A DNA stretch of 64,000 bases from Candidatus Thiodiazotropha endolucinida (GTDB lineage: Bacteria > Pseudomonadota > Gammaproteobacteria > Chromatiales > Chromatiaceae), in the NCBI RefSeq assembly GCF_001715975.1, contig NZ_MARB01000006.1:161790-225789 (forward strand), written 5' to 3'. This document shows, in pieces, positions 2,405 to 64,000 of this stretch. A program made the translations under genes and the position numbers. How positions within the stretch are numbered: the stretch's first letter is position 1; each line of letters opens with the position of its first letter. Under the pieces are notes generated by a model. That model was given only the letters and a program-made list of their open reading frames with translations, was not told the origin of the DNA and did no database searches.

Positions 2405-5400
2405 ATGAGTAATGCGCAAGAATTTTGTGCTCTGAATTGGGTAAAGGATGAGTTGGACATCTCCATTCGCCATGCCCGGCAGGCCCTTGAAGCCTATGTG
2501 GAGTCACCTGGAGACGGCAGTTCGCTCGCTGTATGTGGTGATCATCTGCATCAGATTGCCCGTGTCTTGCAGATGGTTCAGGTGTATGGCCCCAGTATGC
2601 TCACCGAGGAGATGGAACTGGTTGTCAGAGACATGGCAGAGGGTACGGTCAGACAAGAGGAGGATGCGGCCGAAGCCTTGATGCTGGCACTTATTCAACT
2701 GCCGGACTATCTGGAGAAGCTGCAGGGCGGTGATGCCGATATTCCGATGATTATTCTGCCATTGCTGAATGATCTGCGTGCGGTGCGGGATGCTCCACTG
2801 CTGTCGGAAGCGGCACTGTTCAAACCTGAAATCGACACGGCTCGGGCAACGGGTGAAGCGAATGCTGAGTTGCCGATGTACGCCCGGCAGATCAGGCAGA
2901 AATACCATTTAGGCCTGCTCAGCTGGTATCGCAAACGGGATACCATTCACGGCTGGCCGTTGTTGCGGGATGTTTTCACCACGCTTCATCAGCACGCGGG
3001 TACAGAGCCGGTACACCATCTGTTCTGGGTTGCCGAAGGTCTGATGCACGGTCTGATCGAGGGATCGATTGCCCCGGGAATTGCTGTCAAGCAGTTATTC
3101 AGCCGTCTCGATCGCAAAATGAAGACGATTATCGACATGGGTGAGCAGGCGCTGGTTGAGACTCCGCCGGAAGCTCTCTTGAAGAACCTGCTCTATTATA
3201 TTGCCCGGGCGGAATCCGACAATACCCTGATAAAAGAGATCAAGGATGCCTATAACCTCGATTCTGTCATGCCCAGTGAGGCTGAACTGACCGAGGGCAG
3301 GTTGGGCTTGACCGGCTCCAACGCCGAATTGGCTGAGTCGATCAAGGATGCGGTTGGCAGTGAGCTGACCCGCATCAAAGATATTCTCGATCTGTTCATG
3401 AGGGATGAAAAGCCTGACATGGAAATGCTGGGTCATCTAGAGGCCCCAATTCGGAAACTGGCGGATACACTCGGCATGATCGGCCAGGGTGCATTGCGAT
3501 CGAGACTCAATCGGCAAGCCGACAAAGTTAAGAATTTCGTTGAGCAGGAGGTACTGCCTGAAGAGTTCGAACTCATGGAGATGGCTGGAGACATTTTGTA
3601 TGTAGAGTCCTCGCTCAGTACCCTGCATACCTTTCAACCTGTAAAAGGGGATGGGTCGACTGATGATGGTCTGGTGCAGAGTCTACCGGAAGGTGAATAC
3701 CAGAATCTGATCAAACAGACGGTCAGAGAGGCGAAAGTAGAGATTGCCAAGTCTAAGGAGGCGATCATCAGCTTTACCGAGGCGACGGATAACAGCTCGG
3801 TTTTAGATAGCGTCTATGAGAGTTTCAAGCGGGTTCAGGGGGCGTTGAACATGCTCAACCTGGGTGATGCCGCTGAACTGATGTATCAAACGGGAGAGTT
3901 TGTACAATCCTACCTGATCGATGATGAACACATACCTGTCCGTCAACAACTCAACTCCCTTGCGGATGTGGTCAGCAGTATCGAGTATTATCTGGAGACA
4001 CTGGTGGATGGGGCCGGTGATCGCCAGGAGATACTGGCAATCGCCCAGTCAGCATTGAATGATCTGCAGAATCTGGGCGGTGTCGAGATCACGACCTATA
4101 CCGAACCGTCTGAAAACATCAATCTCGAAGAGTCGGCTGATCAGACAGAGGGCTATGAACTCGATGAGGAAGAGATCTCTGATCTGGAGCTGGGTGCCAG
4201 TAGCCTGCAGATAGAGCAGCCGCAGCCTGAGCTGGAAATCATCTCTGAAGAATCCATGGACACGGCATCTGCACAAGAGGCTGAAACTCAGGAACCAGAG
4301 CTTGAAATCGAGCAGGAACCCGAAATCGCATCTGTTGATAAGCCCGTGCTGGAGGACATCGATCCTGAGATCCTTGAAATCTTCACGGAAGAGGCGCGGG
4401 AAGAGCTGGAGACTATTCAGCAACATCTTCCGCGGTGGCAGCGAGATCATAATGACAGAGAGGCGCTGGCAACATTCCGACGCTCATTTCATACGTTGAA
4501 GGGAAGCGGACGCCTGGTTGGCGCGAAAGTGATCGGTGAGTTGGCCTGGGCGGTTGAAAACATGTTGAACCGCCTGATCGACGAGACCATCAAGGTCAAT
4601 CCTGACATGATGGATCTATTGAACCGAGTCACCGATTCACTACCGGAGTTGATCAGTTGCCAGGAAAAGGGTGTATATCCGGACCTGGATGTTGAACTTA
4701 TCCAACGCCAAGCCTATGCGTTGGCTGATGGCAAGCCCATGCCTGTCGCCAATCCGGAGCAAATGGAGAGCGTTGACGAACAGCCGGCAGAGGAAGAGGC
4801 ACTCGAAATAGATACCCAGCCATCTGAAGTGTCTGAGGATGTCTTGAGTGAAACTGCCACACCGGTGGTTGAGATTGAAGAAGAGATAGAAGAAGCGACA
4901 GATGCGGAAGAAACAGAATCAAAACAGGAATTCGATACCTTTCTCGACGACCTGTCGAGTCTGGAAATTGACACTGATCGATCTGAAATCTCCGACCAGG
5001 ACTATGAACCAAGCGCTGAAGCTGCAGTCTCCGGGACAGATACTGCAATAGATGCCGAAGAGATATTACCCGAACAGGCGGCCGAAGAGGGATTGCTTGA
5101 GGAATTCACCGATTCCGATTTAGAGATCGAGATAGATTCGGAGTTGCTTGATGTCTTCGGTGAAGAGTCCGAGGAACATATACTTGAGATCGAGCAGTTC
5201 ATCGAAGGGGCTAGAAAAGCGAAGACGGAGATACTGATACCGGAAGAGGTGGTGCGTGCTTGCCATACCCTGCATGGTAGTGCCCATATGGCGGGTATCT
5301 CACCAATCGCCATGCTCAGCGATGCGATGGAGGACTATGCCAGGGCATTGCATGAGCAGCAAATGGTTGTCGATGAGGAGATCCTTGAACTGTTCGGTGG

Positions 5401-8400
5401 CAGTGTCGGTTACATTCGGAAACTGCTCGAGTGGTTACCTGAAGAGAGTCTACCCGAACCTCATATAGACACCTACCTTAACGGTTTGCGCAGTGCACGT
5501 GCACAAATTGAGGGTGAGGAGCGGGTAATCGTCGAAACACAGCCTGAACAGGAAGAGGTCCATTCAATAACTGACGATCTGGAGTCAGTGTCTGAAGTTG
5601 ATCAGTCTGTTGAGGAAGCTGGGGAGACGGTTGTAGAGGAGCTGACGTCAGAATCGGAAATCGAGGAACCGGTTGAACCGATCACGGATGACGCCATCGT
5701 ACCATTCCCTGCGGATGAAGATTCGCAACCTGGCGAGGTGAAGATTGATCTACCCGAGACAGCCGATATTCCAGCTCAGGATGCGATTGAATCAAACCTA
5801 ATAGATCTGGCCAGTTACCAGCTCGATGAGGAACTGTTTGAGATTGAGGGAGATGATGAGCTGGTTGAGATTTTTGTCGAAGAGGGACGGGAGCTGTTGG
5901 ACAATCTCGAACAGCACTACAACGGATGGATTGAGTCTCCTCTGGACACCGCGGTCGTGGACGAGTTCAAACGCTCTCTGCATACCCTCAAAGGGAGTTC
6001 CAGGTTGGCAGGCATCAACCCAATAGGGGATCTGAGCCATGGTCTGGAAAACCTTTTCGAACGCATGTCCCGCGAAGAGATCGAACCGGATGCCACTCTG
6101 ACGAATATGGTTCGCCAGGCCCTGGATGTCCTGGCGACACAAATAGATGATGCCGAGTCGGGTGGAAACGTACGCTTCTCATCTCAACTGCTATCCAGCC
6201 TGGAGGCGCCTCTCTCAAGTGCCGGGTTGAATGAGATAGATCGGGTTGAAGTCGAGGATGAGACTATTGGCGGGGATCTGCAGCTGGCCGAGGTTGAGGA
6301 TGATGACCTTGAAGAGGAACTCCAGCTAATCGATGTCGAGGATGACGTCGTTGAGGAGGAACTGCCACTGCCCGAGGACAGCGTGCTTGGAGAGGGGGAG
6401 CTGGATCTAGCTGAAATCGATGATGCCGGCCTTGAGGAAGAGTTGCAAAAGGCAAAAGAGTCGGGTTTGGAATCTCCACAGATAGAAGCGGTAGATACCT
6501 CCTCATACTATGATGAGCCAATGAGCTTTCTGCATGATGGCGACCTGTTCGAGGTGAGCGAGGACCCGGAACTGGTTGAGATCTTCATTGAGGAATCACG
6601 GGAGTTGATGGAAGCCCTGGAGGCCAATTATAACCAGTGGTGTGAGAACCGGGCAGACCATACAGGCCTGGATGGAATGCAGCGGGCGTTGCATACCATC
6701 AAGGGAAGTTCGCGTCTTGCCGGTATCGAGCCTGTGGGTGATCTGAGTCATGCCATGGAGTCCTTGCTGAACGGAGTAGTCAGGGGGCAGGTGGACATAT
6801 CAGATAGAGTGTTTGCTGTTGTACGCCAGGCACTGGATTTGATTGCCACACAAACGGATGATGTCGCCAATACCGGCAAGGTCCATCAAGCTGATCCAAT
6901 GATCGAGCGGATCCAGGAAATCATTGATAATGCGTCACTGGAAGAGGATTCCATAGAAGAACTCATAGATCCAAATCTTGAGGAAGAGTTAGAAGAGTTG
7001 GAAGAGTCTGAGAGGGGTGCTGATGCAGTCGCTGAATCGGCTCCTGACGATGAAGATTTGGTGATACCTTTCGAGAGCTTCAATCTTGATGGTGTCAACG
7101 AGGAAGCAAGCAATCTGACAGATGAATCCTTCATGCTTGCGCATGATGAAGTACTGCTCGATGTCGGTGAAGATGATGAGTTGGTGCAGATCTTCATTGA
7201 AGAGGCGAAGGAATTCATTGAGCATATCGAAAGCAGTTATCAGCAGTGGTTTGAAAATGTTGACGACCATACAGCCATTGATGGTGTACAACGCAATCTG
7301 CACACATTGAAAGGCAGTGCACGGTTGGCTGGCACTATGCCGGTTGGCGATCTGAGTCATGCAATAGAATCGGTGATGACAGCCATTGTCGAAAAAGAGA
7401 TTGATCCGATCGAGACGGTCACTGATTCAATGAGACACGCAATCGATCACCTGGCCCAGCAAATCGAGACAATCGCGAAATCCGGTAAAGTACCTGCCTC
7501 TGATAACGAGGTTGATCAGCTGCAGAATCTGCTTGGCGGCGAACCCACGCCTTCACATGCGGATTTGGTGGAGCCGATTCAGGAAGTACAGGAGGATGAA
7601 AGCAGCGAAGAGTTGGAGTTGGTTGAAGAAGTCATTGAGTCGGCGACAGTGCTTCCGTTCAACGATGAGATTGCAAAGCTGCTTGAACCGGATAAGAAAG
7701 AGGATGAGGAAAGTTTTAAGCCCACCAAGGAACAGGTACGTGTCAATGCGGATCTCATGGATCGCCTGGTCAATCATGCGGGTGAGGTGAGTATCTACCG
7801 GGCACGACTCGAACAGCAGAATAGCGTGCTTGGGTTCAACCTGTCAGAGTTGGAGCAGACAGTTTCACGTCTGCATAATCAATTGAGAAATCTGGAAATC
7901 GAAACCGAGGCACAGATCATCTACCGTTGGGAACGGGAGCATGAGGATGACCGTGACAGGACCGAGTTCGATCCACTCGAACTAGACAGATTTTCTACCA
8001 TGCAACAGCTCTCCAGGGCCTTGATGGAGACGGTCAACGACCTGGGAAATACCAATGAGTCGCTGAGAGACCTGCAACGCGAAACAGATACATTACTGTT
8101 GCAACAGTCGCGTATCTCCACTGATCTGCAGGACGGTTTGCTGCGCACACGCATGGTGCCGTTCGCTCAACTTGTACCCAGAATGCAACGCCTGGTTCGT
8201 CAGACCGCCGGTCAATTGGGCAAGAAGGCCAATCTTGAGTGTTTTGGAGTTGAAGGGGAATTGGATCGCAGCATCCTCAACCGTATGGTGCCGGTACTGG
8301 AACATTTGCTGCGCAACTCGGTTTCCCATGGTATTGAGCTTCCCGAAGATCGTCAGAAGGCAAGTAAGCAGGAGCTGGGCAGAATTTCCCTCTATCTCGA

Positions 8401-54344: not shown

Positions 54345-54396
54345 CGCGCCTTCAGGTGAGGTATCTCTAACCGGTTGACGATATACCCCACTAGCA

Positions 54397-54472
54397 GGGT
54401 GCTTAGCTCAGCTGGGAGAGCATCGCCCTTACAAGGCGAGGGTCGCAGGTTCGATCCCTGCAGCACCCACCA
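54397..54472 (+). tRNA. tRNA-Val (anticodon UAC)
   Basis: 76 bases with encoded CCA. Acceptor GGGTGCT/AGCACCC; anticodon stem CGCCC/GGGCG-like around loop TTACAA; T arm GCAGGTTCGATCCCTGC. It lies 52 bases after hupB. Confidence 0.97.
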
Positions 54473-54476
54473 ACTC

Positions 54477-54553
54477 GGAGCGGTAGTTCAGTTGGTTAGA
54501 ATACCGGCCTGTCACGCCGGGGGTCGCGGGTTCGAGTCCCGTCCGCTCCGCCA
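54477..54553 (+). tRNA. tRNA-Asp (anticodon GUC), probable attachment site
   Basis: 77 bases with encoded CCA. Acceptor GGAGCGG/CCGCTCC; anticodon loop CTGTCAC gives GUC; T arm GCGGGTTCGAGTCCCGT. It is four bases after tRNA-Val. In related genomes ppiD follows this tRNA; here phage/plasmid genes follow, so the 3' end of the tRNA is the likely left junction of an integrated element. Confidence 0.96.
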
Positions 54554-54563
54554 ACTTAAGATG

Positions 54564-54589
54564 ATAAACCATTGAAATATATGGTTTAT
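54564..54589 (+). promoter_or_regulatory. Inverted repeat upstream of rep, candidate Rep operator
   Basis: ATAAACCAT (54564-54572) and ATGGTTTAT (54581-54589) form a perfect nine-pair inverted repeat with an eight-base gap, 61 bases before the rep start. Rep_3 initiators commonly repress their own gene by binding such a site as dimers. The right arm resembles the ATGGATTT core of the downstream iteron. No T-run follows, so it is not a good terminator. Confidence 0.5.
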
Positions 54590-54649
54590 GGTAACGACCA
54601 CTGACGTTCTGCCCCTACTCTGTCACTAACTTAGCAGGGTTATGGGTGT

Positions 54650-55453
54650 ATGAAAAGGTTTGACGAATGCCTGGCCTTGCACCTTCAGCTGAACGCTGAG
54701 GGGCAGTGGGAGGTGGTGTACCGGGAGCCAGGAGAGCGAGGCCCACACAAGGTATGCAAGTCTAACATGTTGATTGAAGCGCACTACAAACTGACGTTTG
54801 TTGAATTACGGGTTGTGCTGTTGGGTGTTGCCCAGCTGAATCCGCGTGAGCCCGTGCCCGATGAGATTGAGATCACGGCGGAGGAATACGCTAACACCTA
54901 CCAGGTCACCGACGATAGAGCTTACCAATCGTTTACAGAGGCAGCTGGTCGGCTGCCTAAGCGCAAGCTAGAGGTGTTTGATAAAGCGGGTACGGGCAAG
55001 CGCATTTCTTGGCTTAAACCGAACACAACGGACGCTGAGCTTTACCCTAAAGGGAGCGGTGCCTTCAATTTATGTTTTTCTGACGAAGTGAAGGCCTATC
55101 TAGCGGGTCTAAGCCGCTGTTTTACGGTCTACGAGCTGGAAAAGATCGCGCCGCTAAACTCCTATTATTCCATGCGACTTTATGAGCAGCTCTGCCAGTG
55201 GCGCAGTACCGGCAAACTGGTAGTTACGCTGGAGGACTTCAGGGGCCGCCTGGGCCTTGAAGACAAATACTCGGAATTCTTCAATTTGAAGCAGCGTGCG
55301 ATCGATGTCGCAGTCAAAGAACTGTGCGAGAAATCAGGGTTGAGGATCTCCTGGGAGGTCAAGCGGCGGAACAATAAGGTTGTCGGCCTGACATTCAATT
55401 TTGAAGAAAAGAGCCTGAAGGGGTCCAAGCTGGCGCGTTTCCCGAATTCCTAA
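54650..55453 (+). CDS. rep: Rep_3-family (RepB) plasmid replication initiator
   Basis: 267 residues. The pattern of two winged-helix domains of Rep_3 initiators is visible: SNMLIEAHYKLTFVELRVVLL near 38-58, YELEKIAPLNSYYSMRLYEQL near 162-182, FRGRLGLEDKYSEFFNLKQR near 200-220 and a final EVKRRNNKVVGLTFNF strand. Such proteins bind iterons and open the origin of theta-replicating plasmids. It is the first gene after tRNA-Asp, and iteron-like repeats lie 520 bases downstream of its stop. Unusual in a chromosomal tRNA context unless the region is an integrated plasmid or phage-plasmid. Confidence 0.85.
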   Translation: MKRFDECLALHLQLNAEGQWEVVYREPGERGPHKVCKSNMLIEAHYKLTFVELRVVLLGVAQLNPREPVPDEIEITAEEYANTYQVTDDRAYQSFTEAAGRLPKRKLEVFDKAGTGKRISWLKPNTTDAELYPKGSGAFNLCFSDEVKAYLAGLSRCFTVYELEKIAPLNSYYSMRLYEQLCQWRSTGKLVVTLEDFRGRLGLEDKYSEFFNLKQRAIDVAVKELCEKSGLRISWEVKRRNNKVVGLTFNFEEKSLKGSKLARFPNS

Positions 55454-55478
55454 ATTCGCTTTAAAACGAGGTAACTTA

Positions 55479-55886
55479 ATGAGTAAAAAAATCCTCTTAG
55501 TGGTGTTGTTGTTTCCATCGATCCTATGTGCCGGGCTAGACGGAGGCGACTGCTATATCGTTGGCAACCAAAAAGGTTACAGCGCAAAGCACTACAAAAA
55601 TAACTATAAACCTTTTCCAGATGAAGTATCTGATGTTACTGTTAAGGTGAGAGTTGCTGGCGATAGTAGTGAAACTAGTAGCTCGCATCGTGATGCCTCT
55701 GCCTCACGTTGTTTTGAAATTGCTAGTAATACAATTTTCTGTGTAGCTGGGACCATGCGTGTTTCCGAAATCACGGCTGTATATCCCACGGAAGGTAAAG
55801 TCATCACGACTACCGTGTATCCTGAAGAACACCCTTTTGCTGGTGCGAGCTTGCTTGTCGGCGACATCTTAAGCCGTTGTAATTAG
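55479..55886 (+). CDS. Secreted hypothetical protein of the mobile element
   Basis: 135 residues; start ATG 55479 has GAGG ten bases upstream. A signal peptide (SKKILLVVLLFPSILCA) predicts export; the residue before Cys 17 is Leu, so it is not a good lipobox. The mature part has several Cys (GDCYIV, SRCFEI, TIFCVAG, SRCN), Ser/Thr-rich turns and beta character. No family recognised. It follows rep by 25 bases and may be co-transcribed. Confidence 0.6.
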   Translation: MSKKILLVVLLFPSILCAGLDGGDCYIVGNQKGYSAKHYKNNYKPFPDEVSDVTVKVRVAGDSSETSSSHRDASASRCFEIASNTIFCVAGTMRVSEITAVYPTEGKVITTTVYPEEHPFAGASLLVGDILSRCN

Positions 55887-55924
55887 CTCACCCATCCTGA
55901 AAACCCGATCAATCAACTGAAAAG

Positions 55925-56152
55925 CGAGCGACCGCTCGTTTTGTGGATGATTACGGGATAAGCTGCGAACTTAGCGAAGGATTTGTAAGGGTTAGCTATG
56001 GATTTGTAAGGAACCTCTCTAATAACCATCTGTATTTAATACCGAATCCCGCCCTTAAAAACAAGATTAAAAACAAGATAAAAAATTATTGGTGGTGAGC
56101 GCTGTACAAAAATTGGACAGTTCGGCGAGTTATTCACAATTTCTGTGGATAG
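55925..56152 (+). other. Candidate iteron-type replication origin
   Basis: In order: an inverted repeat CGAGCG-AC-CGCTCG (55925-55938); two 20-base direct repeats TTAGC(N3)GGATTTGTAAGG at 55972-55991 and 55993-56012, 17 of 20 positions identical and spaced 21 bases, two helical turns; an AT-rich tandem of TTAAAAACAAGA (56055-56066 and 56067-56078) followed by TAAAAAATTATT; and two opposed DnaA boxes, TTATTCACA (56130-56138) and the complement of CTATCCACA (56144-56152). With a Rep_3 gene just upstream, this is the expected layout of a theta origin. Only two clear iterons are seen, fewer than in most plasmids. Confidence 0.6.
55972..56012 (+). repeat. Iteron-like direct repeats
   Basis: Two copies of TTAGC(GAA/TAT)GGATTTGTAAGG with a one-base gap give an exact 21-base period. 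They share the GGATTT core with the rep operator candidate at 54564. Confidence 0.65.
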
Positions 56153-56225
56153 GGCTGTTGTTTTATTGGCGGGTTGAGGGGCAAAGGCTTGACCCTATTG
56201 ATTTTCTTTTAGATTGTACAATTTT

Positions 56226-56521
56226 TATACAAATGAGTGCCTTCGGCACAGCTCAAGCAGTTTGATCCCTACCCTCCGCCCCAGTCGCTCAGGCGACTGG
56301 CCTGGAGAAGGTGTCTACGCCTTCGGCTTCGACGTTTTTGTGTTGGCTTCACGGCTGTTCAGCCACCGTGCGGGTCGGCTTGGCAGGCGGCTTCGCCGCT
56401 CTCGTTCATGGATCACCCTGACCGACAAAAGGTCTACAGGCGCGTGTCCGGCTTGGGGGCTAGCATCACGTCAAAACGCCGCGCCAGAGCGCCTCAGTGG
56501 CCCCGAGTGCGGTTTTTTTGG
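56226..56521 (+). ncRNA. Hairpin-rich segment ending in an intrinsic terminator
   Basis: Several perfect hairpins follow each other: GTGCC-TTC-GGCAC near 56237, CCAGTCGC-TCAG-GCGACTGG near 56282, CAC-GGCTG-TT-CAGCC-ACC-GTG near 56351 and GCGGC-TTC-GCCGC near 56388. The segment ends with a CGCCTC/GAG(T)GCG stem and seven T residues at about 56515-56521. This could be a structured noncoding RNA of the element. No promoter is clear and no known family was recognised. Confidence 0.35.
56484..56521 (+). terminator. Intrinsic terminator
   Basis: CGCCTC and GAGTGCG pair with one bulged T around a nine-base loop, followed by G and seven T residues on the plus strand. Confidence 0.5.
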
Positions 56522-57334
56522 GTTTTGAATGGGGGGATATGTCCGGCGTATTTTGAACGCCTAGTTTGGACGTCCTTGTCCTGAGCGGGATCTGGCGTGT
56601 GGCTAATAGGCATCGCCATAGGCATAGCCATAGCCATAGCCATCGCCAAAGCCAAAGCCAAAGCCAAAGCCATCGCCAAAGGAATAGCCATAGCCATAGC
56701 CGTTACCATGGCCAAAGCCATCGCCAAAGCCATAGCCAAAGCCAGCGCCAGCGCCAGCGCCAGCGCCATAGCCATAGCCAGCGGGATCGGGTGTGTGGTT
56801 AATTGCCATAGCCAGCTCCATCGCCATCGCCATCGCCATAGGCATAGCCATCGCCATCGCCATCGCCATAGGCATAGCCATCGCCAAAGCCATCGCCATA
56901 GCCATTGCCATCGCCAAAGCCAAAGGAATAGCCAGAGCCATCGCCATAGCCATCGCCAAAGCCAAAGCCAGCGCCAGCGCCATAGCCAGAGCCATAGCCA
57001 TCGCCAGCGGGATCGGGTGTGTGGTTAATTGCCATAGGCATAGCCAAAGCCAAAGCCAAAGACAAAGCCAAAGCCAGCGCCAGCGCCATCGCCAAAGCCA
57101 AAGCCATCGCCATAGCCAAAGCCATCGCCATAGCCAAAGCCAGCGCCATTGCCATCGCCAAAGCCATCGCCAAAGCCATCGCCAAAGCCATCGCCAAAGC
57201 CATAGCCATCGCCAAAGACAAAGCCAGCGCCAGCGCCGTTACCATAGCCATAGCCCTCGCCAAAGCCATAGCCAAAGCCAGCGCCAGCGCCAGCGCCAGC
57301 GCCATAGCCAGAGCCAGCGGGATCGGGTGTGTGG
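56494..57334 (-). pseudogene. Frame-stepped Gly-X modules 2-4 and tail
   Basis: On the minus strand three more Gly-X modules follow the Gly-rich gene: 57339-57025, 57029-56799 and 56803-56603, then a tail 56607-56494. Each opens one base forward (+1) of the frame that has just stopped and begins with (I)(N/S)HTPDPA, encoded by a shared boundary of about 30 bases. The modules alternate Gly (GGC) with Tyr, Phe, Asp, Ala, Asn or Ser. They have no start codons or ribosome sites of their own in the Gly frame, so as written they are untranslated unless ribosomes shift or reinitiate. The tail has a non-repetitive C-terminus (QDKDVQTRRSKYAGH). Confidence 0.4.
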
Positions 57335-57500
57335 TTAATTGCCATAGCCAGCGCCATCGCCGTTACCATAGCCATCGCCTATGCCTGTGCCGTTGGGGAA
57401 GCTGTTGCCAGCGCCGTCGCCATTCCCAAAGAGCAGGCCAAAGCCATCGCCATAGCCGCTGCCGGCTTCGAGACCGAAACCGGCGCCATAGCCGTAGATG
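56597..57500. repeat. About 0.9 kb of GCCNNN hexanucleotide repeat
   Basis: The plus strand is an almost unbroken run of six-base units GCCATA, GCCATC, GCCAAA, GCCAGC, GCCATT and rarer variants. Three internal boundary copies of GCGGGATCGGGTGTGTGG (near 56779, 57007 and 57319) and one diverged copy near 56587 divide it. Because of its composition almost all six frames are open, so open frames alone are not evidence of coding. It has no direct-repeat/spacer pattern of a CRISPR array. Confidence 0.9.
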
Positions 57501-57544
57501 GGGCCGGTGACATAGGCACTGACGTAGCCCAGGGATTTAAACAT
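57335..57544 (-). CDS. Short Gly-rich repeat protein (module 1)
   Basis: 69 residues from ATG 57544, which overlaps the end of the upstream gene by eight bases. A unique start (MFKSLGYVSAYVTGPIYGYG) passes into alternating Gly-X dipeptides (GYGDGFG, GDGAGYGN) and a TAA stop. No signal peptide is present. The dipeptide style recalls Gly-rich C-terminal tails of phage proteins, and the Asp-Gly pairs could bind calcium; both are guesses. It is the only Gly-X module with a proper start and an upstream partner gene. Confidence 0.5.
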   Translation of the reverse strand: MFKSLGYVSAYVTGPIYGYGAGFGLEAGSGYGDGFGLLFGNGDGAGNSFPNGTGIGDGYGNGDGAGYGN

Positions 57545-57860
57545 GCTTTTTCCCATTAAATGGTTTAGAGGGATAGAGGCAAATAAACGACTCGAAGTGA
57601 ATCGCATCCGTTACCTCATCGATGACATTCGTCTTCTTATCCGTCTCATTCGGGGCTAGCATGAAGCCTTCGTTTGCGAGTTGCGGCAGGCCGCCCTCGC
57701 GTTGTCGCCAATAACGGATGTTTCTAGCGTCGTCCAAGCAAAACCGGTTGCCCAAGTCCACCAGTTTTCCATGGTGGACAAACCCAAAAGGGAGAATGGC
57801 GATGACGTAGCTGTTGTGCAGTGGATGTCGGTCGGTTGTTTGTGTTTTAGATTCGGACAT
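57537..57860 (-). CDS. DUF6948-like phage protein
   Basis: 107 residues from ATG 57860, preceded by GTGGAGACGACC; an ATG ten codons upstream lacks this. The sequence YVIAILPFGFVHHGKLVDLG, then LDDARNIRYWRQREGGLPQLANEG and IHFESFICLYP, resembles the small DUF6948-type domain found in phages (a strand-turn-strand start, a NAR-x-I-x-Y/W-W segment and a final IHFES/ILLTEAI-like strand). Function unknown. It is transcribed opposite to the other genes of the element, together with the Gly-rich gene. Confidence 0.55.
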   Translation of the reverse strand: MSESKTQTTDRHPLHNSYVIAILPFGFVHHGKLVDLGNRFCLDDARNIRYWRQREGGLPQLANEGFMLAPNETDKKTNVIDEVTDAIHFESFICLYPSKPFNGKKHV

Positions 57861-58007
57861 GGTCGTCTCCACGTTAGATGGTTGTGTCAATGATCGCTGA
57901 TTACCCCCATTAACCCGTTTCGAGCGACGGCATTAAGCTAAGGAAAAGTGGGTGAATTGTCCAGTTACAGGGTTTTTCCCTATTGTTGCTGGGATTTCTC
58001 CTAATTA

Positions 58008-58343
58008 ATGATATGGGTTATCATGATTGACGTGACTATATTCTTCTTACCTTGGGGACTGATAATCATGCTGGTCATCTTTGCCGGCGGGTTATTGTTA
58101 GTCTCGGCTGAGGACAGGGTAAGTCTGAAGCGTGCCCAGCGAGAGATTGCGCGTTTACAGTCTGAACTTTCTCGGATCAAGAGGGAATATAATTTAACGC
58201 TGTTGCGTATTAACGAGAAGAAACAGTCGGAAAAGGAGAAGCTGGCGGAGGTGGTGAGTCAAGTTTATGTCAACCAAACCGAATCGGGCGGCATAGGCGA
58301 TAGGGAGTTCTCCGATAACAAGGGGAATTATCCTGACCAATAA
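58008..58343 (+). CDS. Small membrane protein with coiled coil
   Basis: 111 residues: one strong hydrophobic segment (IFFLPWGLIIMLVIFAGGLLL, about residues 11-31), then a charged helix predicted to be a coiled coil (LKRAQREIARLQSELSRIK). A membrane anchor with a periplasmic coiled coil is also the plan of phage inner-membrane spanins, but no partner gene or lysis gene is adjacent, so this is only one option. The start may be ATG 58008 or 58023; neither has a strong ribosome site. Confidence 0.5.
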   Translation: MIWVIMIDVTIFFLPWGLIIMLVIFAGGLLLVSAEDRVSLKRAQREIARLQSELSRIKREYNLTLLRINEKKQSEKEKLAEVVSQVYVNQTESGGIGDREFSDNKGNYPDQ

Positions 58344-58371
58344 GCGGATCATTTTTGCAGCGATAGCGAAC

Positions 58372-58683
58372 ATGAAAAAGATCATTCAATTTTCTATCGC
58401 TGCGGCACTGATCGCAGCAACTGGATCTGCCACGGCATGGTGGAACGGGCCTGGCTGGGGAAGCGATCGCAACGTTTTTTGTGGCGATTACACCCTTGGC
58501 ATGAGCGGTAAGCGTGGGTGCGAATGCAGTCTACCGGTTCTTTCTTTACCAGGCCTCCAATATGATGGTTGCAATAGGCGCGGCTACTACGGCTACGGTC
58601 CCAACGGTCCCTACTACGGCTACAGTCCCAAAGGTCCCTTCCACGGCTACGCTCCCAACGATACTTATGATTACGACTATTAG
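58372..58683 (+). CDS. Sulfur globule protein-like exported protein
   Basis: 103 residues. A clear signal peptide (KKIIQFSIAAALIAATGSATA) is followed by WWNGPGWG, then GMSGKRG, and a C-terminal repeat of Gly-Tyr-Pro units: GYYGYGPNGPYYGYSPKGPF. This order of AWW-GPGW start, M-S-G-R/K-G middle and GYGP/YGYAP repeats matches the sulfur globule family proteins (Sgp) that coat periplasmic sulfur globules in purple and symbiotic sulfur bacteria. It differs by a Cys-containing middle part (FCGDY, CECSLP, DGC). It lies between phage-plasmid genes rather than with sox or dsr genes, so it may be cargo. Family assignment is from pattern memory. Confidence 0.6.
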   Translation: MKKIIQFSIAAALIAATGSATAWWNGPGWGSDRNVFCGDYTLGMSGKRGCECSLPVLSLPGLQYDGCNRRGYYGYGPNGPYYGYSPKGPFHGYAPNDTYDYDY

Positions 58684-58714
58684 TTTCTTTCTTGTTGATT
58701 TATTCAGGCTGGTT

Positions 58715-59056
58715 ATGTACCGCATGAATAATGAAGTACATATATTCGGTGTGGAAGCTACCGCTCGCCAACAACAGCGTGCATTACTGGACGGTAATGA
58801 GCATGTATTACCTGCACGTGAGAGATGTAGCATCATATTATTTATGCGCCAAAAGAAAGGCACGGATTCTGATTGGGACTTGGCCAAGAAAACGTTGAGT
58901 GAGGCAGGGTGGGGGAACATCGAAATTATTCAATCAGGCCGTACTACATTGGAAAAGCTGAATGAAGCTGAAGATGACCCGGTATCGACTTGTTGTTATA
59001 CCGAAGCCTTGACTGGAGGGAAGGCGTTTTTGGTCTATCAAGATATTGAAGATTGA
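58715..59056 (+). CDS. Hypothetical protein of the mobile element
   Basis: 113 residues from ATG 58715, or 110 from ATG 58724. The frame is open back through the sulfur-globule-like gene, but that part is a shadow of its repeats. Soluble, mixed alpha/beta; segments VHIFGVEATARQQQRALL, SIILFMRQKKGTDSDWDLAK and EDDPVSTCCYTEAL. I do not recognise the family. Confidence 0.5.
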   Translation: MYRMNNEVHIFGVEATARQQQRALLDGNEHVLPARERCSIILFMRQKKGTDSDWDLAKKTLSEAGWGNIEIIQSGRTTLEKLNEAEDDPVSTCCYTEALTGGKAFLVYQDIED

Positions 59057-59141
59057 TCGCCCATCGCCTCATCGACAAGCGTGACGATGCCAACCCACTG
59101 AAGTAGTGAGGGCTTGCGTTTCCCGTCAGAATACGCCAGAC

Positions 59142-59172
59142 TTATCCACAAAAAGCCCCGCCATTGCGGGGC
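59142..59172 (-). terminator. Minus-strand terminator-like hairpin beside a DnaA box
   Basis: GCCCCGC (59155-59161) and GCGGGGC (59166-59172) form a seven-pair stem with a four-base loop. On the minus strand it is followed by five T residues, as in an intrinsic terminator. The adjoining bases 59142-59150 are TTATCCACA, a perfect DnaA box. No minus-strand gene is seen to end here. Confidence 0.4.
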
Positions 59173-59206
59173 GGGCGCCTTTATAAAGGTTAATAAAAAC
59201 AAGAAG

Positions 59207-59575
59207 ATGCCAATGCCACATCCTTTTATCGACCAAAAAGTAATCATCTTGTCTAACGCGGCCGACACGGAGGCGAATTCTGTGATTGTGGGCCAGCTTA
59301 AAGCGTCTGGTTTGCGTGATGTTTACTACGTGACGGGGTGTTATGCCTTGGACAGTACGGCGTTGGCATCGAGCCGGTTGATGCCGGATAAGGTGATCGC
59401 GATGGGCGAGGTCTGTATAGAGCGGGGTTCGGTCGCCCTGATGTTGGCGGATTCGCGCGGCTTTCATGCCAAGCTTGCGGCGTTAGCGAGGGTTAAGGAT
59501 ACGGTGTCCGGGACGGTACCGCGTAGTCCTGCGGCGGTCCGTCGACTTAAGGAAGCGGTGGGTAAACAACCATAA
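59207..59575 (+). CDS. Hypothetical protein
   Basis: 122 residues from ATG 59207; the frame extends upstream only through a TTG without support. Soluble, Ala-rich, with strands and helices such as KVIILSNAADTEANSVIVGQL, DVYYVTGCYALDS and DKVIAMGEVC. Ends in a basic helix. No family recognised. First of three tightly spaced small genes upstream of the packaging module. Confidence 0.55.
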   Translation: MPMPHPFIDQKVIILSNAADTEANSVIVGQLKASGLRDVYYVTGCYALDSTALASSRLMPDKVIAMGEVCIERGSVALMLADSRGFHAKLAALARVKDTVSGTVPRSPAAVRRLKEAVGKQP

Positions 59576-59602
59576 CTAAAGCAATGCGAAGGAGCGTACG
59601 GC

Positions 59603-60037
59603 ATGAGTCTTGTGTCATTTGTGAAGAGGATTGATTTTGTGGAAGCGCAGCGTTTTGTCGGTTTGATCGATACGGGGCTGGACGTGCTTAAGTTTGCGGC
59701 GGAGAAGATGAAGGATGATGGCCGTATTTCGGGCCAAGAGGGTCTTGAGATACTGGACAAGGCGTTGGGCCATCATGGGATTTGTCTGGGGTGTGACGGG
59801 CATGGGATTCGAGAGGCGGTTGATGAGCCGGATGAGCCGGTTCGGGCGAAGCGGCCGCGTCGTCGCCGGGATGACCGGGGTTATGCGTTGCGTTTCAAGG
59901 CAAGTGACGAGACGCCCGAGGCGCTGGCGGAGAAGTTGGCGGGACTGGAGACCTTGGTGGATCGCGGGGTGTGTTTGGAATGTGATGGCGAGGCGTCCTA
60001 TCGAGTGAGTCAGCAGCCGAGCGAACGGCACAGTTAA
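59603..60037 (+). CDS. Small protein with paired CxxCDG motifs
   Basis: 144 residues; ATG 59603 has GGAG ten bases upstream. Two similar segments, GICLGCDGHGI near residue 60 and GVCLECDGEAS near 123, give a C-x2-C-D-G pair that could bind one zinc ion. A strongly basic linker (KRPRRRRDDRG) between them suggests nucleic acid contact. Function unknown; no established family recognised. Confidence 0.6.
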   Translation: MSLVSFVKRIDFVEAQRFVGLIDTGLDVLKFAAEKMKDDGRISGQEGLEILDKALGHHGICLGCDGHGIREAVDEPDEPVRAKRPRRRRDDRGYALRFKASDETPEALAEKLAGLETLVDRGVCLECDGEASYRVSQQPSERHS

Positions 60038-60050
60038 GTTTTCAGGCACA

Positions 60051-60125
60051 GCGCCCTGGTTGATGTCGAGTCTGCCACCCCCAACCACCCAGGCAGGTTT
60101 TACGGATGCCGGGGCGCTTTTTTTT
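60051..60125 (+). terminator. Branched intrinsic terminator upstream of the packaging genes
   Basis: GCGCCCTGG (60051-60059) pairs with CCGGGGCGC (60109-60117) with one mismatch, enclosing a second CTGCC/GGCAG stem, and is followed by eight T residues (60118-60125). It lies just before the ribosome site of the next gene, so the late genes need either read-through or their own promoter. Confidence 0.65.
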
Positions 60126-60141
60126 GGAGTTGAGGTGAAGC

Positions 60142-60621
60142 ATGGGTATTTTCACCGATGAGCGCCAGGCGAAGGCGGATCGCTACAATGCGGCGCGCCA
60201 GCGCACGGTTGAGCGGTTTTTGAATCGGACGTACTATGAGCGAAAAGCCGGGCAGGATCTGATTACGCGGATATCGACGGAGACGGCGGAAGAATACGTG
60301 CTGCGCCAAAAGGGTTATCGGGCGGTAATTGAGCGGTTGCTCGAGGAGACGGGGGCGTTTCGTGATAGCTATTATGGGCAGTACGAGGCTGAGCCTGCGC
60401 CGGTGTATTTAGTGACGGCGAAGTTGCTGGATCAAGAGTATGCGTATCTTGAGATCTGTTTGCGGATTGTGGAGGAGAACATGCTGCGGGCGGAGGATGC
60501 GTCGTTTTATGCGAACCGTTTGGCGTGGATCATGCGTAAGGTGAGAAAAGGCTGGTTGCAGGCGTTGGCGAAGCAGCATGACCTGCCGGATGAGGTAAAG
60601 CGTTTTATTGCGCGGGTGTAG
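60142..60621 (+). CDS. Hypothetical phage protein
   Basis: 159 residues, almost wholly helical, charged. Start ATG 60142 has GAGGTGAAG at good spacing and directly follows the terminator. Segments include RTYYERKAGQDLITRIS, LLDQEYAYLEICLRIVEEN and AWIMRKVRKGWLQAL. No family recognised. It lies before the terminase genes, where accessory packaging or regulatory proteins are often found. Confidence 0.6.
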   Translation: MGIFTDERQAKADRYNAARQRTVERFLNRTYYERKAGQDLITRISTETAEEYVLRQKGYRAVIERLLEETGAFRDSYYGQYEAEPAPVYLVTAKLLDQEYAYLEICLRIVEENMLRAEDASFYANRLAWIMRKVRKGWLQALAKQHDLPDEVKRFIARV

Positions 60622-60655
60622 CGCGCATCACAAAAACACAGCGGAGCAAGACACA

Positions 60656-60763
60656 ATGGACGTGTTGTTTTCGAAGCCGGTTGTTGGTCTGATGCTGATG
60701 GCGTTGGGTTGTTGGGCGTCGATTGCGCAGGAGGGGGCGGTTGAGCGCGTCCCGGCGCGGTAA
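60656..60763 (+). CDS. Possible 35-residue hydrophobic peptide
   Basis: ATG 60656 has GGAG ten bases upstream and encodes DVLFSKPVVGLMLMALGCWA followed by a short polar end. It resembles a membrane or leader peptide. Its end overlaps the TTG start of the small terminase gene, whose ribosome site lies inside it, so it may act by translational coupling. No homologue known. Confidence 0.35.
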   Translation: MDVLFSKPVVGLMLMALGCWASIAQEGAVERVPAR

Positions 60764-61109
60764 GGCCGAGGCATCTGCTGGGGGTAAGCGCCGCCCGGGT
60801 CGCCCGAAGGGTTCGAAGAACAAGTTTTCGGTGGCGGCGGCGCGCAAGGCGGCGGCGGACCAGGGTCAGTTGCCGCATGAGTATTTATTTTCGTTGGGGT
60901 TATCGGGCGATTTAAGTCCGGGCCAACGGATAGCGGCATTGAAGGCGGCGGCGCCGTATTATGCGCCGAAGCTTTCGTCGATTGAGGCGAAGTTGGAGCC
61001 GGTGCGGGTAGAGCTGACGGATAGTGAGCTGAGTGCCCGCATTGAGGCGTTGCAAAAGGCATTGCGAGGCGAAGCGGATGGACCCGGTATCGAGAGCGAG
61101 ACAGCTTGA
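60741..61109 (+). CDS. Terminase small-subunit-like protein
   Basis: 122 residues from TTG 60741, which has a strong AGGAGGG site; an earlier TTG (60723) lies before that site. A basic AT-hook-like start (KRRPGRPKGSKNK) is followed by helices with AAARKAAADQGQLPHEYLFS and RIAALKAAAPYYAPKLSSIEA. The GRPKGSxN start and the AAPYxxPKLSS ending are usual for small proteins encoded directly before phage large terminases, where they recognise DNA for packaging. It overlaps the large terminase gene by 32 bases. Confidence 0.65.
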   Translation: MSASRRGKAEASAGGKRRPGRPKGSKNKFSVAAARKAAADQGQLPHEYLFSLGLSGDLSPGQRIAALKAAAPYYAPKLSSIEAKLEPVRVELTDSELSARIEALQKALRGEADGPGIESETA

Positions 61110-62544
61110 GCTTGAAGGGCTGCTGCAAGAGCAGCTGAGACGCCGATCGCGGCGTAAGCTTGAAAGTTATTATCCTGAGACGGGCCCTTTGCGGCGCGCG
61201 TTATATCCCAAACATTTAGCGTTTTTTGAAGGTGGACGTCACTACCGGCAACGGTTGATGCTGGCGGCGAACCGTATTGGCAAGACGGAGGGGGTGGGCT
61301 TATACGAGTTGGTGTTGCATCTGACGGGGGCTTATCCGGCCTGGTGGCGGGGTCGGCGTTTTAGTCGGCCGATCCGTGCGTGGGCGGCGGCGGACACGAT
61401 CAAGAATGCGCGCGAGATTTTGCAGGCGAAGTTGCTGGGGGCGTCGGCGTCGGATTGGGGGACGGGTTTAATCCCGGGTGACAGTTTGCAGGGGGTGAGT
61501 AAGGGGGCGACGGGGACGGTGGACACGATTGAGGTGTCGTCGGTGTCCGGGGGGACGTCGGTGCTGCTGCTGAAGAGTTACGAGCAGGGTCGCAAGGCGT
61601 TTCAGGGGACGGAGCAGGATGTGATCTTGCTGGATGAGGAGCCGCCGTACGGGGTGTATACGGAGGCTTTGATGCGGACGATGACGACGGATGGTTTGTT
61701 GTTGTTGACGTTCACGCCGTTGCAAGGGGTATCGGAGGTGGTGCGGGCGTTTTTGGGGGATGACGTTTCGCCGGCGGCGGCGTTGTCGGGCGAGGGGCAT
61801 TCGACGTCGGGGCGTTGGGTGGTGCGGGCGAGTTGGGATGATGTGCCGCATCTTTCTGCGGAGGTGAAGGCGGAGTTGCTGCAGTCGATCCCGGCGTACC
61901 AGCGGGATGCGCGGAGCCGGGGCGTGCCGCAGTTGGGATCGGGGGCGATCTATCCGATTCCGGAAGCGGATTTTGTGGTGTCGGATTTTGAGATACCGGC
62001 GCATTGGCCGCGGGTGTATGGGCTGGATGTGGGTTGGCGCAAGACGGCGGCGTTGTGGTGCGCGCGCGATTTGGATGGGGGGGTGGATTATCTGGTGAGT
62101 GAGCACTACCGGGGAGAAGCAGAGCCGGTGGTGCATGCGGCGGCGATCAAGGCGCGGGGCGATTGGATTCCTGGCGTGATTGATCCGGCGGCGCGCCAGC
62201 GTAACCAGAAGGATGGTGAGCGTTTATTGGATGACTACAACCGGGAGGGGTTATGGCTGACGCCGGCGGTGAGTGCGGTGGAGTCTGGGATTTACCGGGT
62301 GTACCAGGCGTTGTCGACGGGGCGCTTGAAGGTGTTTGGGAGTTTGCGCAACTGGTTGGATGAGTACCGGTATTACCGGCGGGATGAGCAGGGTCGGATC
62401 GTGAAGGAGCGGGATCATCTGATGGATTGCACGCGGTATGTGTACAACAGTGGTTTGTCGTTAGCGGCGTTGTCGCCCGCGGTTGAGCGTTTGAAAGCGC
62501 GTGGCCGTGGGCGGCGGGTGTCGAGCGAGGGCTGGATGGGCTAG
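61078..62544 (+). CDS. Phage terminase large subunit
   Basis: 488 residues from ATG 61078, with GAGGCGAAG before it; the frame reaches back to 61033 without support. Walker A-like LMLAANRIGKTEG near residue 62, Walker B VILLDEEPP near 185, a coupling segment LLLTFTPLQG, and a C-terminal nuclease domain with YGLDVGWRKTAALW, GVIDPAARQRNQKDG and acidic residues near HLMDCTRYV. It is the ATP-driven motor and nuclease that packages phage DNA into heads. The Terminase_6/P22-like form fits the following portal. Confidence 0.92.
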   Translation: MDPVSRARQLELEGLLQEQLRRRSRRKLESYYPETGPLRRALYPKHLAFFEGGRHYRQRLMLAANRIGKTEGVGLYELVLHLTGAYPAWWRGRRFSRPIRAWAAADTIKNAREILQAKLLGASASDWGTGLIPGDSLQGVSKGATGTVDTIEVSSVSGGTSVLLLKSYEQGRKAFQGTEQDVILLDEEPPYGVYTEALMRTMTTDGLLLLTFTPLQGVSEVVRAFLGDDVSPAAALSGEGHSTSGRWVVRASWDDVPHLSAEVKAELLQSIPAYQRDARSRGVPQLGSGAIYPIPEADFVVSDFEIPAHWPRVYGLDVGWRKTAALWCARDLDGGVDYLVSEHYRGEAEPVVHAAAIKARGDWIPGVIDPAARQRNQKDGERLLDDYNREGLWLTPAVSAVESGIYRVYQALSTGRLKVFGSLRNWLDEYRYYRRDEQGRIVKERDHLMDCTRYVYNSGLSLAALSPAVERLKARGRGRRVSSEGWMG

Positions 62545-62558
62545 GCAGGCGTTGGGCG

Positions 62559-64000
62559 ATGGAAAGATTGGTCAAGGATGCGCAGGCGGTTTTTGAATTG
62601 GCGTCGGAGGTGGAGTCGGAGAACCGCGCGTCGGCGTTGTCGGATTTGCGGTTTGCGAAGTTAGGTGAGCAATGGCCGTCGGCGATGCGCAAGAAGCGGG
62701 AGGATGAGGGGCGGCCGTGTTTAACGATCAACCGGATGCCGGCGTTTATCCGTCAGGTGGTGAATGATGCGCGGCAGAACCGGCCGAGCATCCAGGTGCA
62801 TCCGGTGGATGATGGCGCGGATGTTGAGACGGCGGAGATTTACAGTGGATTGATCCGGAACATTGAGTACACGTCGGATGCGGAGGTGGCGTATGACACG
62901 GGGATTGAGCATGCGGTGACGTGTGGTTACGGGTACTGGCGGGTGGGGATTGATTATGCGTCGGACGATACGTTTGAGCTGGATTTGCGGATAGAGCGGA
63001 TCCCGAACATATTCAGTGTCTATGGCGATCCGTATTCGTTGCGTGCGGATTCGAGTGATTGGCAGGATGCGTTTGTGCTGGATTATGTGCCGAAGGCGGT
63101 GTTTAAGCGGCGTTATCCTGGTGCGAAGTTGTCGGATTGGCCGGTGACGCAGCAGCATCATCAGCGTGTGGACCGGGCGGGCGTGTGGTTATCGGAGTAT
63201 TGGCATCGTTCGGAACGTGATGAGGTGGTGTTGGGGTTATCGGACGGGACGGTGTTGGCTGAGGGGGATTACCGGCGGGCGGCGGATGTTTTGCAGGCGG
63301 AGGGGCTTGAGGTGGTGGATGAGCGCGAGGTGACGCGTTCGTCGGTGAAGCAGTATTTGCTTTCTGGGGTTGGGGTGTTGGAGGAGCGGGATTGGCCGGG
63401 GCGTTACATCCCGCTGATTCCGGTGTATGGGGATGAGACGGTGGTGGATGACCGGCGCTATTTTCGGAGTTTTATCCGGGATGCGAAGGATCCGCAGCGG
63501 ATGTACAACTACTGGCGAACGGCGTCGACGGAGTTGGTGGGTTTGGCGCCGAAGGCACCGTATATCGGGCCGCGGGGTGCGTTTCAGACGCAGCGGCACA
63601 AGTGGCGTAATGCGAACCGTGAGAGTTATGGTTTTTTGGAGTATGACGGGGCTGTTGCGCCGACGCGCCAACCGTTTTCGGGGCCGCCGATGGGGACGAT
63701 CCAGGAGGCGAAGAGCGCGGCGGATGACATGAAGGCGGTGACGGGGATTTATGATTCGAGTTTAGGGGCGCGCAGTAATGAGACGTCGGGTGTGGCGATC
63801 GCGATGCGTCAACGGGAAGGGGATGTGAGCACGTTTCATTTTATCGACAATTTGTCGCGTGCGATCCGGCACACGGGTCGGGTATTGATTGATTTGATTC
63901 CGAGGGTTTACACGGGTCCGCGGATGGTGCGTGTTTTGGGGCCGTCGGGGAATGATCCGCGGACGGTGCGTTTGGGGGGTGGTGGGGCTGAGGCTGAGGG
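62559..64000 (+). CDS. P22-like phage portal protein (3' end beyond window)
   Basis: The frame from ATG 62559 stays open to the end of the window, giving 480 residues; P22 gp1 has 725. Visible segments: a helical start (MERLVKDAQAVFELASEVES), RPCLTINRMPAFIRQVVNDA near 48-67, IEHAVTCGYGYWRVGIDY, PNIFSVYGDPYSLR, and SNETSGVAIAMRQREGD near 405. These match P22-type portals. The portal is the ring at the head vertex where the terminase docks, so this is the start of a head-assembly module of a podovirus-like phage. It begins 14 bases after the terminase stop. Confidence 0.88.
   Translation, partial: MERLVKDAQAVFELASEVESENRASALSDLRFAKLGEQWPSAMRKKREDEGRPCLTINRMPAFIRQVVNDARQNRPSIQVHPVDDGADVETAEIYSGLIRNIEYTSDAEVAYDTGIEHAVTCGYGYWRVGIDYASDDTFELDLRIERIPNIFSVYGDPYSLRADSSDWQDAFVLDYVPKAVFKRRYPGAKLSDWPVTQQHHQRVDRAGVWLSEYWHRSERDEVVLGLSDGTVLAEGDYRRAADVLQAEGLEVVDEREVTRSSVKQYLLSGVGVLEERDWPGRYIPLIPVYGDETVVDDRRYFRSFIRDAKDPQRMYNYWRTASTELVGLAPKAPYIGPRGAFQTQRHKWRNANRESYGFLEYDGAVAPTRQPFSGPPMGTIQEAKSAADDMKAVTGIYDSSLGARSNETSGVAIAMRQREGDVSTFHFIDNLSRAIRHTGRVLIDLIPRVYTGPRMVRVLGPSGNDPRTVRLGGGGAEAE

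Follow-up and report, generated by a model that had tools for sequence, protein, structure and literature searches.

Temperate phages that carry a plasmid replicon are a kind already known. Burkholderia phage KS14, which encodes ParA and lacks a tyrosine integrase, is reported to be kept as a plasmid in its lysogens (PMC3091744). Integration and ParABS modules are reported to coexist in some actinophages, and phage-plasmids can become integrated and shed plasmid genes (PMC11652158), so the general idea of a phage with plasmid modules that integrates is also known. For Candidatus Thiodiazotropha, a genus of lucinid-clam symbionts, PMC11171427 describes partial, inactive prophages in another species. 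Here we analyze a 64,000-nucleotide (nt) stretch of the Candidatus Thiodiazotropha endolucinida genome (hereafter the window), in which a Rep_3-family replication initiator and P22-type packaging genes follow a tRNA-Asp gene. The sequence gives good support for a phage that is integrated and carries a plasmid-type replicon, as structural and packaging genes occur together with a plasmid replication initiator. Most probably, the element is a temperate P22-type podophage that integrates at a tRNA gene and whose excised genome replicates from a Rep_3/iteron replicon.

The window spans positions 161790-225789 of contig C6 in a genome of 55 contigs and 4.49 megabases (Mb). Its last base is the end of the contig, which cuts the portal gene, and the remainder of the element is on other contigs of the same genome. 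An initial annotation of the window had placed a Rep_3 initiator directly after tRNA-Asp, where ppiD was expected, had seen no integrase in the first 9.4 kilobases (kb), and had proposed looking for ppiD and a second copy of the tRNA-Asp 3' end at a right junction. All of these points were borne out. Rep begins 96 base pairs (bp) downstream of tRNA-Asp. The right junction lies on contig C5, where a second copy of an 18-bp core (CGTCCGCTCCGCCAACTT, the tRNA-Asp 3' end plus four bases) is followed after 98 bp by the start of ppiD (C5:10528). The core was found at these two places only in the 259 kb of this genome that were examined. The integrase is on this other arm, adjoining the right core, and has all three of the domains Arm-DNA-bind_3, Phage_int_M and Phage_integrase. 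A TTGGCGG-N9-CCGCCAA palindrome overlaps the core at the right end of this element and at that of a related element in G134, one of the other genomes of the genus (G numbers denote comparison genomes).

Related genomes display the site without the element. All 22 genomes of the genus have ppiD, and tRNA-Val, tRNA-Asp and ppiD are adjacent in 20 of them, with ppiD starting 75-105 bp after tRNA-Asp. The two exceptions are the genome studied here and G139, where ppiD is near a contig edge. When compared with the empty site of G126 (ppiD 98% identical), 414 of 418 positions match in the left flank and 198 of 200 in the right. With a direct repeat taken from the tRNA 3' end, an intact tRNA gene and empty sites in relatives, the element is, judged from sequence, a prophage integrated in the 3' end of tRNA-Asp. 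A second tRNA-Asp gene on contig C31 was considered as the other attachment site and rejected, being without the last four bases of the core and having ordinary chromosomal surroundings.

Rep exceeds the Pfam cut-offs for Rep3_N (E 1.9e-29) and for Rep3_C (E 4.5e-17), and so has the initiator domains WH1 and WH2; against the RepM (Acinetobacter) model NF038290 it scores 154.2 bits, below the curated cut-off of 250. The origin-like segment that the initial annotation saw after Rep contains two exact 12-bp iterons (55979-55990 and 56000-56011) 21 bp apart, an AT-rich direct repeat (56050-56079) and a DnaA-box-like TTATTCACA (56130-56138), and these features near rep identify it as a putative origin. 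No such iteron pair at any period of 19-24 appeared in 200 single-base shuffles of 55887-56214. The layout is common to three relatives: in G134, G138 and G139, as in this element, the DNA after rep has iterons of 21-bp period and an AT-rich block with CGCCCTTA, and the pattern applied for a DnaA-box-like site finds one in all except G139. At periods of 19-24, the four loci of the genus have 4, 30, 32 and 19 pairs of near-identical 12-mers, all of period 21; in 200 shuffles the means were between 0 and 0.015 and the highest count was 2. Iteron sequences differ among the four Rep_3 loci while the layout holds, as would be anticipated if initiator and iterons evolve together. In front of rep is an inverted repeat, of which G138 keeps the TGAAATAT middle with arms that are different yet still paired. 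A similar palindrome precedes rep in G134, and none was seen before rep in G139. The 102-nt fold at this repeat (z -1.8) is weak alone, as 11 of 200 shuffles fold equally well.

Rep does not belong to a common chromosomal family, an alternative raised in the initial annotation, since only 4 of the 22 genomes of the genus (this one, G134, G138 and G139) have a match, among 36 of 210 in the order. In a tree of 28 proteins, comprising this Rep and 27 of 29 further loci (L043-L071, with L069 and L071 left out), the four Reps of the genus form one group with support of 100/98. A tRNA gene occurs within the flanks (up to 1.5 kb) of two of the 29 loci, G134 with tRNA-Ser(CGA) and G138 with tRNA-Ser(GGA), in each case about 100 bp before rep. 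There was no tRNA in the stretch examined around the Rep of G139, and a chromosomal Rep_3 in G201 had neither a tRNA nor a match to the element's phage proteins in 37 kb.

G134 carries structural genes after rep and, on its contig C45, an intact integrase of 410 amino acids (aa) that is 52-59% identical to the one described here. The right core beside that integrase, found by BLAST, matches the tRNA-Ser 3' end at 17 of 18 positions; an exact pattern search for the right core in G134 and G138 returned left cores only. Contig C193 of G138 is suggestive only: a core-like CTCCCTCTCCGCCA accompanies the N-terminus of an integrase, with 49% identity over 63 aa, and the palindrome pattern did not match at this candidate right end. 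Hence, both ends of the plan, with tRNA and rep at one and integrase and core at the other, are seen twice, the second time in a second species, and the left end a third time in G138. The order tRNA-then-rep recurs in G134 and G138, where Rep identity is 47-48% and the origins are conserved, which implies that the arrangement has been kept over long divergence. On contig C44 of G134, structural genes are in a different order, with a coat fragment convergent with fibre-like open reading frames (ORFs) at the contig end. Contig C3 of G142 has a related integrase (55-70% identical over pieces) in an island with genes that are restriction-modification-like by their translations and without a Rep or phage match; about 18 kb from it is a tRNA-Ser(TGA). 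Phage and non-phage islands may thus be served by one integrase family.

The rest of the element could be followed on an IMG/VR record and two contigs. IMGVR_UViG_2602042099_000002 (22,385 bp) shares 12,651 bp with the window without any difference and extends 9.7 kb beyond the window's end. Contig C45 (8,180 bp) covers most of this extension at 99.7% identity with a 24-bp length difference. The order C6, C45, gap, C5 is inferred, and the readable DNA of the element amounts to 29.6 kb, outside which lies the stretch between the end of the IMG/VR record and C5:1. The ejection protein and the ORF after it have neighbors in the same order in G134. Large terminase (TerL) and portal were called correctly in the initial annotation, as their family matches (Table 1) confirm, whereas the small terminase is placed by its location before TerL only, and its PHROG matches are all of unknown function. 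The description as P22-like holds for portal and coat, which belong to Pfam P22 families, and for scaffold and ejection protein by PHROG matches. It does not extend to the early region: none of the proteins scanned from the readable 29.6 kb was recognized as a repressor, Cro, a non-Rep_3 initiator, a helicase, ParA/ParB or another partition protein, or an addiction module.

Three coat genes stand in tandem, present on both C45 and the IMG/VR record. All are open frames with near full-length matches to PF11651 (E 7e-23 to 9e-28) and phrog_283, and they are 34-38% identical to one another. Among 121 IMG/VR loci, the coat model found a coat in 90, of which two are the element's own record with its three coats. 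The other 88, some of them near-identical and, where the coat query supplied them, taken from its best 80 of 123, carry a single coat; in 57 of these loci, each side has at least 1.4 kb of sequence. A tblastn search with the third coat against 50,697 phage records gave 48 records with 48 places, one annotated in two pieces. Coat matches occur in 5 of 210 genomes of the order, with more than one copy only in the genome studied here and fragments in G134 and G016. In a coat tree of 95 rows, the three coats group together (98/97), which favors duplication within this lineage, subject to the tree program's warning of meeting long branches. Literature on duplicated or multiple capsid genes, covered by title and the start of the abstract, yielded no P22-type case. 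Podophages with two paralogous tail-tube genes, created by lineage fusion, are described in passages of PMC10386132 that mention no duplicated coat, and paralogous virion genes in podophages are therefore already known. With this triplet it could be tested if specialized coat subunits are tolerated, or even required, by P22-type shells.

These features suggest how the phage might function. The tyrosine integrase would recombine the phage attachment site (attP) with the tRNA-Asp gene, so that rep and origin come to lie at the left end. In the excised circle, Rep_3 would bind the iterons, melt the AT-rich repeat beside the DnaA box and initiate theta replication, and rep may regulate itself through the inverted repeat in front of it. 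The Rep_3 replicon would thereby stand in for the initiator and helicase genes of lambda and P22-type phages, neither of which was recognized in the readable 29.6 kb. TerL would package DNA through the portal, and the amidase and holin-like protein would lyse cells to release any virions produced. A tentative and rather doubtful extension is that the element represents a tRNA-targeting podophage lineage of lucinid-clam symbionts, with the iteron replicon fixed beside the left attachment site (attL) as its only replication system and, in this member, a head built from three diverged coat paralogues, perhaps as a three-part mosaic capsid or by coat switching.

Several observations weigh against a functional integrating phage that replicates from this replicon. 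An in-frame TAG interrupts the integrase at residue 225, between its central and catalytic domains, so this copy may be defective, which suggests that it may not excise unaided. The predicted origin has two clear iterons and those of the relatives three, as judged by eye, and a scan of 54350-56300 for sigma-70-like promoters found 0 compared to a mean of 2.0 in shuffles. The ORF at 59603 weakly matches SegC, which is linked to segregation in archaea (18.3 bits against a cut-off of 200). In the DNA examined from G134 there was no terminase or portal, and its origin is inverted relative to rep; the 6-kb contig of G138 had no phage gene. Moreover, the adjacency of the contigs rests on inference, and because the stretch between the end of the IMG/VR record and C5:1 is outside the readable DNA, it could contain a gene for a repressor, a helicase or partition.

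The initial annotation proposed a phage living as a plasmid or an integrated phage-plasmid. Its second half stands in so far as phage genes and a plasmid-type replicon are integrated together, given both attachment sites, the integrase, the displaced ppiD and the empty sites. Stable life as a plasmid is hypothetical, with no partition gene recognized in the proteins scanned and an in-frame stop in the integrase. A true phage-plasmid, mostly a free circle and integrated only occasionally or by now permanently, would be in keeping with Rep relatives in KS14, whose prophage is kept as a plasmid, in FLC10, in D6 and in at least 5000 plasmid records. We nonetheless think it unlikely, because integrase and matching attachment sites occur in both this element and G134, no ParA/ParB or addiction module was recognized in the proteins scanned, and a megablast search of the left arm against 72,556 plasmid records was empty. 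KS14, in contrast, has ParA and no tyrosine integrase (PMC3091744).

The integrase stop codon and the odd accessory DNA between origin and packaging genes could instead indicate a decayed prophage remnant in which Rep_3 is a functionless leftover of plasmid recombination. This too appears improbable when rep, terminase, portal, scaffold, three coats, adaptor, holin-like gene and amidase are all open frames, and tRNA-then-rep recurs with conserved origins at the Rep divergence seen in G134 and G138. An assembly error joining an unrelated plasmid or phage contig to tRNA-Asp is much less probable still. Although the contig ends within the element and C31 has a further tRNA-Asp gene, the 18-bp cores match, ppiD is beside the other end, and the C31 gene differs in its flanks and is missing the final four bases of the core. 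The same junction is present in the IMG/VR record, which may derive from the same reads.

Table 1. Features in order along the element; positions refer to the window unless a contig or record is named.
Feature	Position	Strand	Size	Remarks
tRNA-Val	54397-54472			tRNA scan
tRNA-Asp(GTC)	54477-54553	+		integration target, gene remains intact; uninterrupted site in 20 of 22 genus genomes
attL core	54540-54557	+	18 bp	identical to right attachment site (attR), C5:10412-10429
Inverted repeat	54564-54589		9-bp arms around TGAAATAT	upstream of rep; putative Rep operator
Rep_3-family replication initiator	54650-55453	+	267 aa	Pfam Rep3_N, Rep3_C
ORF, no assigned function	55479-55886	+	135 aa	phrog_2651, E 2e-6
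Predicted iteron origin	55920-56140			iterons, AT-rich repeat, DnaA-box-like site; layout conserved in G134, G138, G139
Four tandem overlapping Gly-rich (GxGx) reading frames	56603-57607	-		ATGGCAATTAA stop/start overlaps
Six small ORFs (58008, 58372, 58724, 59207, 59603, 60142)	58008-60621	+		no confident family
Putative small terminase	60723-61109	+	128 aa	position before TerL; phrog_8771, phrog_15261 (both unknown function)
Large terminase	61078-62544	+	488 aa	Terminase_6N PF03237, Terminase_6C PF17289, phrog_2
P22-type portal, cut by contig end	62559-64000	+	636 aa in full	P22_portal, E 1.3e-161; full in IMG/VR 2602042099_000002
Scaffold	IMG/VR record/C45			phrog_3927, E 7e-15
Coat 1	locus L025 of the IMG/VR record, 4319-5578		419 aa	purine-rich leader
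Coat 2	locus L025 of the IMG/VR record, 5618-6838		406 aa	purine-rich leader
Coat 3	locus L025 of the IMG/VR record, 6875-8128		417 aa	purine-rich leader
Adaptor	IMG/VR record/C45			PF24175, phrog_2941
ORF	IMG/VR record/C45		1069 aa	internal DNA repeats, no confident family
DNA ejection protein, end	C5:1-10411			phrog_4287
ORF	C5:1-10411		407 aa	weak tail-fibre match
ORF	C5:1-10411		601 aa	no match
Pentapeptide-repeat protein	C5:1-10411			
Holin-like gene	C5:1-10411			E 0.0014
Amidase	C5:1-10411			
Tyrosine integrase	C5:8938-10200	-		adjoins right core

An Rfam scan matched the tRNAs only. In the structural genes (window 59200-64000, C45 and C5:1-4400), GC skew is very high at +0.26 to +0.34 and the G+C fraction is 0.59-0.60; the host part of the window has values of +0.07 and 0.53. 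The GxGx frames, located between origin and packaging genes, have three ATGGCAATTAA junctions, and the later frames begin MAINHTPDPAG. Of 22 genomes of the genus, 1 has the junction motif, with all 3 copies at this location. The 103-aa ORF at 58372-58683 has a signal-like N-terminus and a GYGPNGPYYGYSPKGP-type tail without a Pfam or NCBIfam family match, and we take it to be reminiscent of sulfur globule proteins.

The Rep model identified only the element's own record among the 121 IMG/VR loci, as did Rep searches of viral contigs. A first Rep search of genome contigs gave no match, and a profile search with the four-member Rep alignment found 16 loci, three of them in Thiodiazotropha. A P22-type podophage that combines an integrase directed to a tRNA gene with an iteron replicon, the sole replication module recognized, was not met in our phage, plasmid, IMG/VR or literature searches, the last of these covering papers in part.

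The virion genes resemble those of known P22-type phages. The nearest portals to the 480 aa in the window are those of Chlorobiaceae phage CV-1-33 (51% identity), Vibrio phage VvAW1 (45%) and Xanthomonas phage PBR31 (43%). These three phages (PF16510/PF11651) share the order TerL, portal, scaffold, coat and have DNA ejection or internal proteins; lysis genes are annotated in VvAW1 and PBR31, as in this element, and PBR31 also has an integrase. They differ in having one coat gene each rather than three, and in replication: VvAW1 and PBR31 have their own annotated replication protein, CV-1-33 has an ERF-type gene, and none matched the Rep_3 query. Three deposited plasmids, NZ_CP061617, NZ_CP146567 and NZ_CP123553, also carry a P22-type structural module, with an integrase listed in at least two of the three. 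They are 3 of 15 portal-bearing records, each compared in part, and their portals are 24-26% identical to this one. By annotation, their early regions have Cro/CI-type or antirepressor genes with DnaB-type, ERF or replication genes.

The replicon has its relatives elsewhere. Rep matched 11 phage records, including KS14, FLC10, four short Acinetobacter records, one Clostridioides record and D6, which we take to be a P1-type phage-plasmid. Burkholderia phages KS14 and FLC10, of the same virus genus by name, combine phage and plasmid replicon as this element does, with Rep_3 initiators of 33-34% identity, and differ in their P2-type (P2-like) virion. Among the nearest plasmid Reps, at 38-41% identity, are those of the Thioflavicoccus mobilis (NC_019941) and Sedimenticola thiotaurini (NZ_CP011413) plasmids, whereas the Reps of Thiodiazotropha form their own group, three of the four about 100 bp after a tRNA gene. 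The locus described here has a plasmid replicon inside an integrating podophage, and the same plan recurs in this symbiont genus at another tRNA gene, a concrete case for the exchange of replication modules between phages and plasmids.

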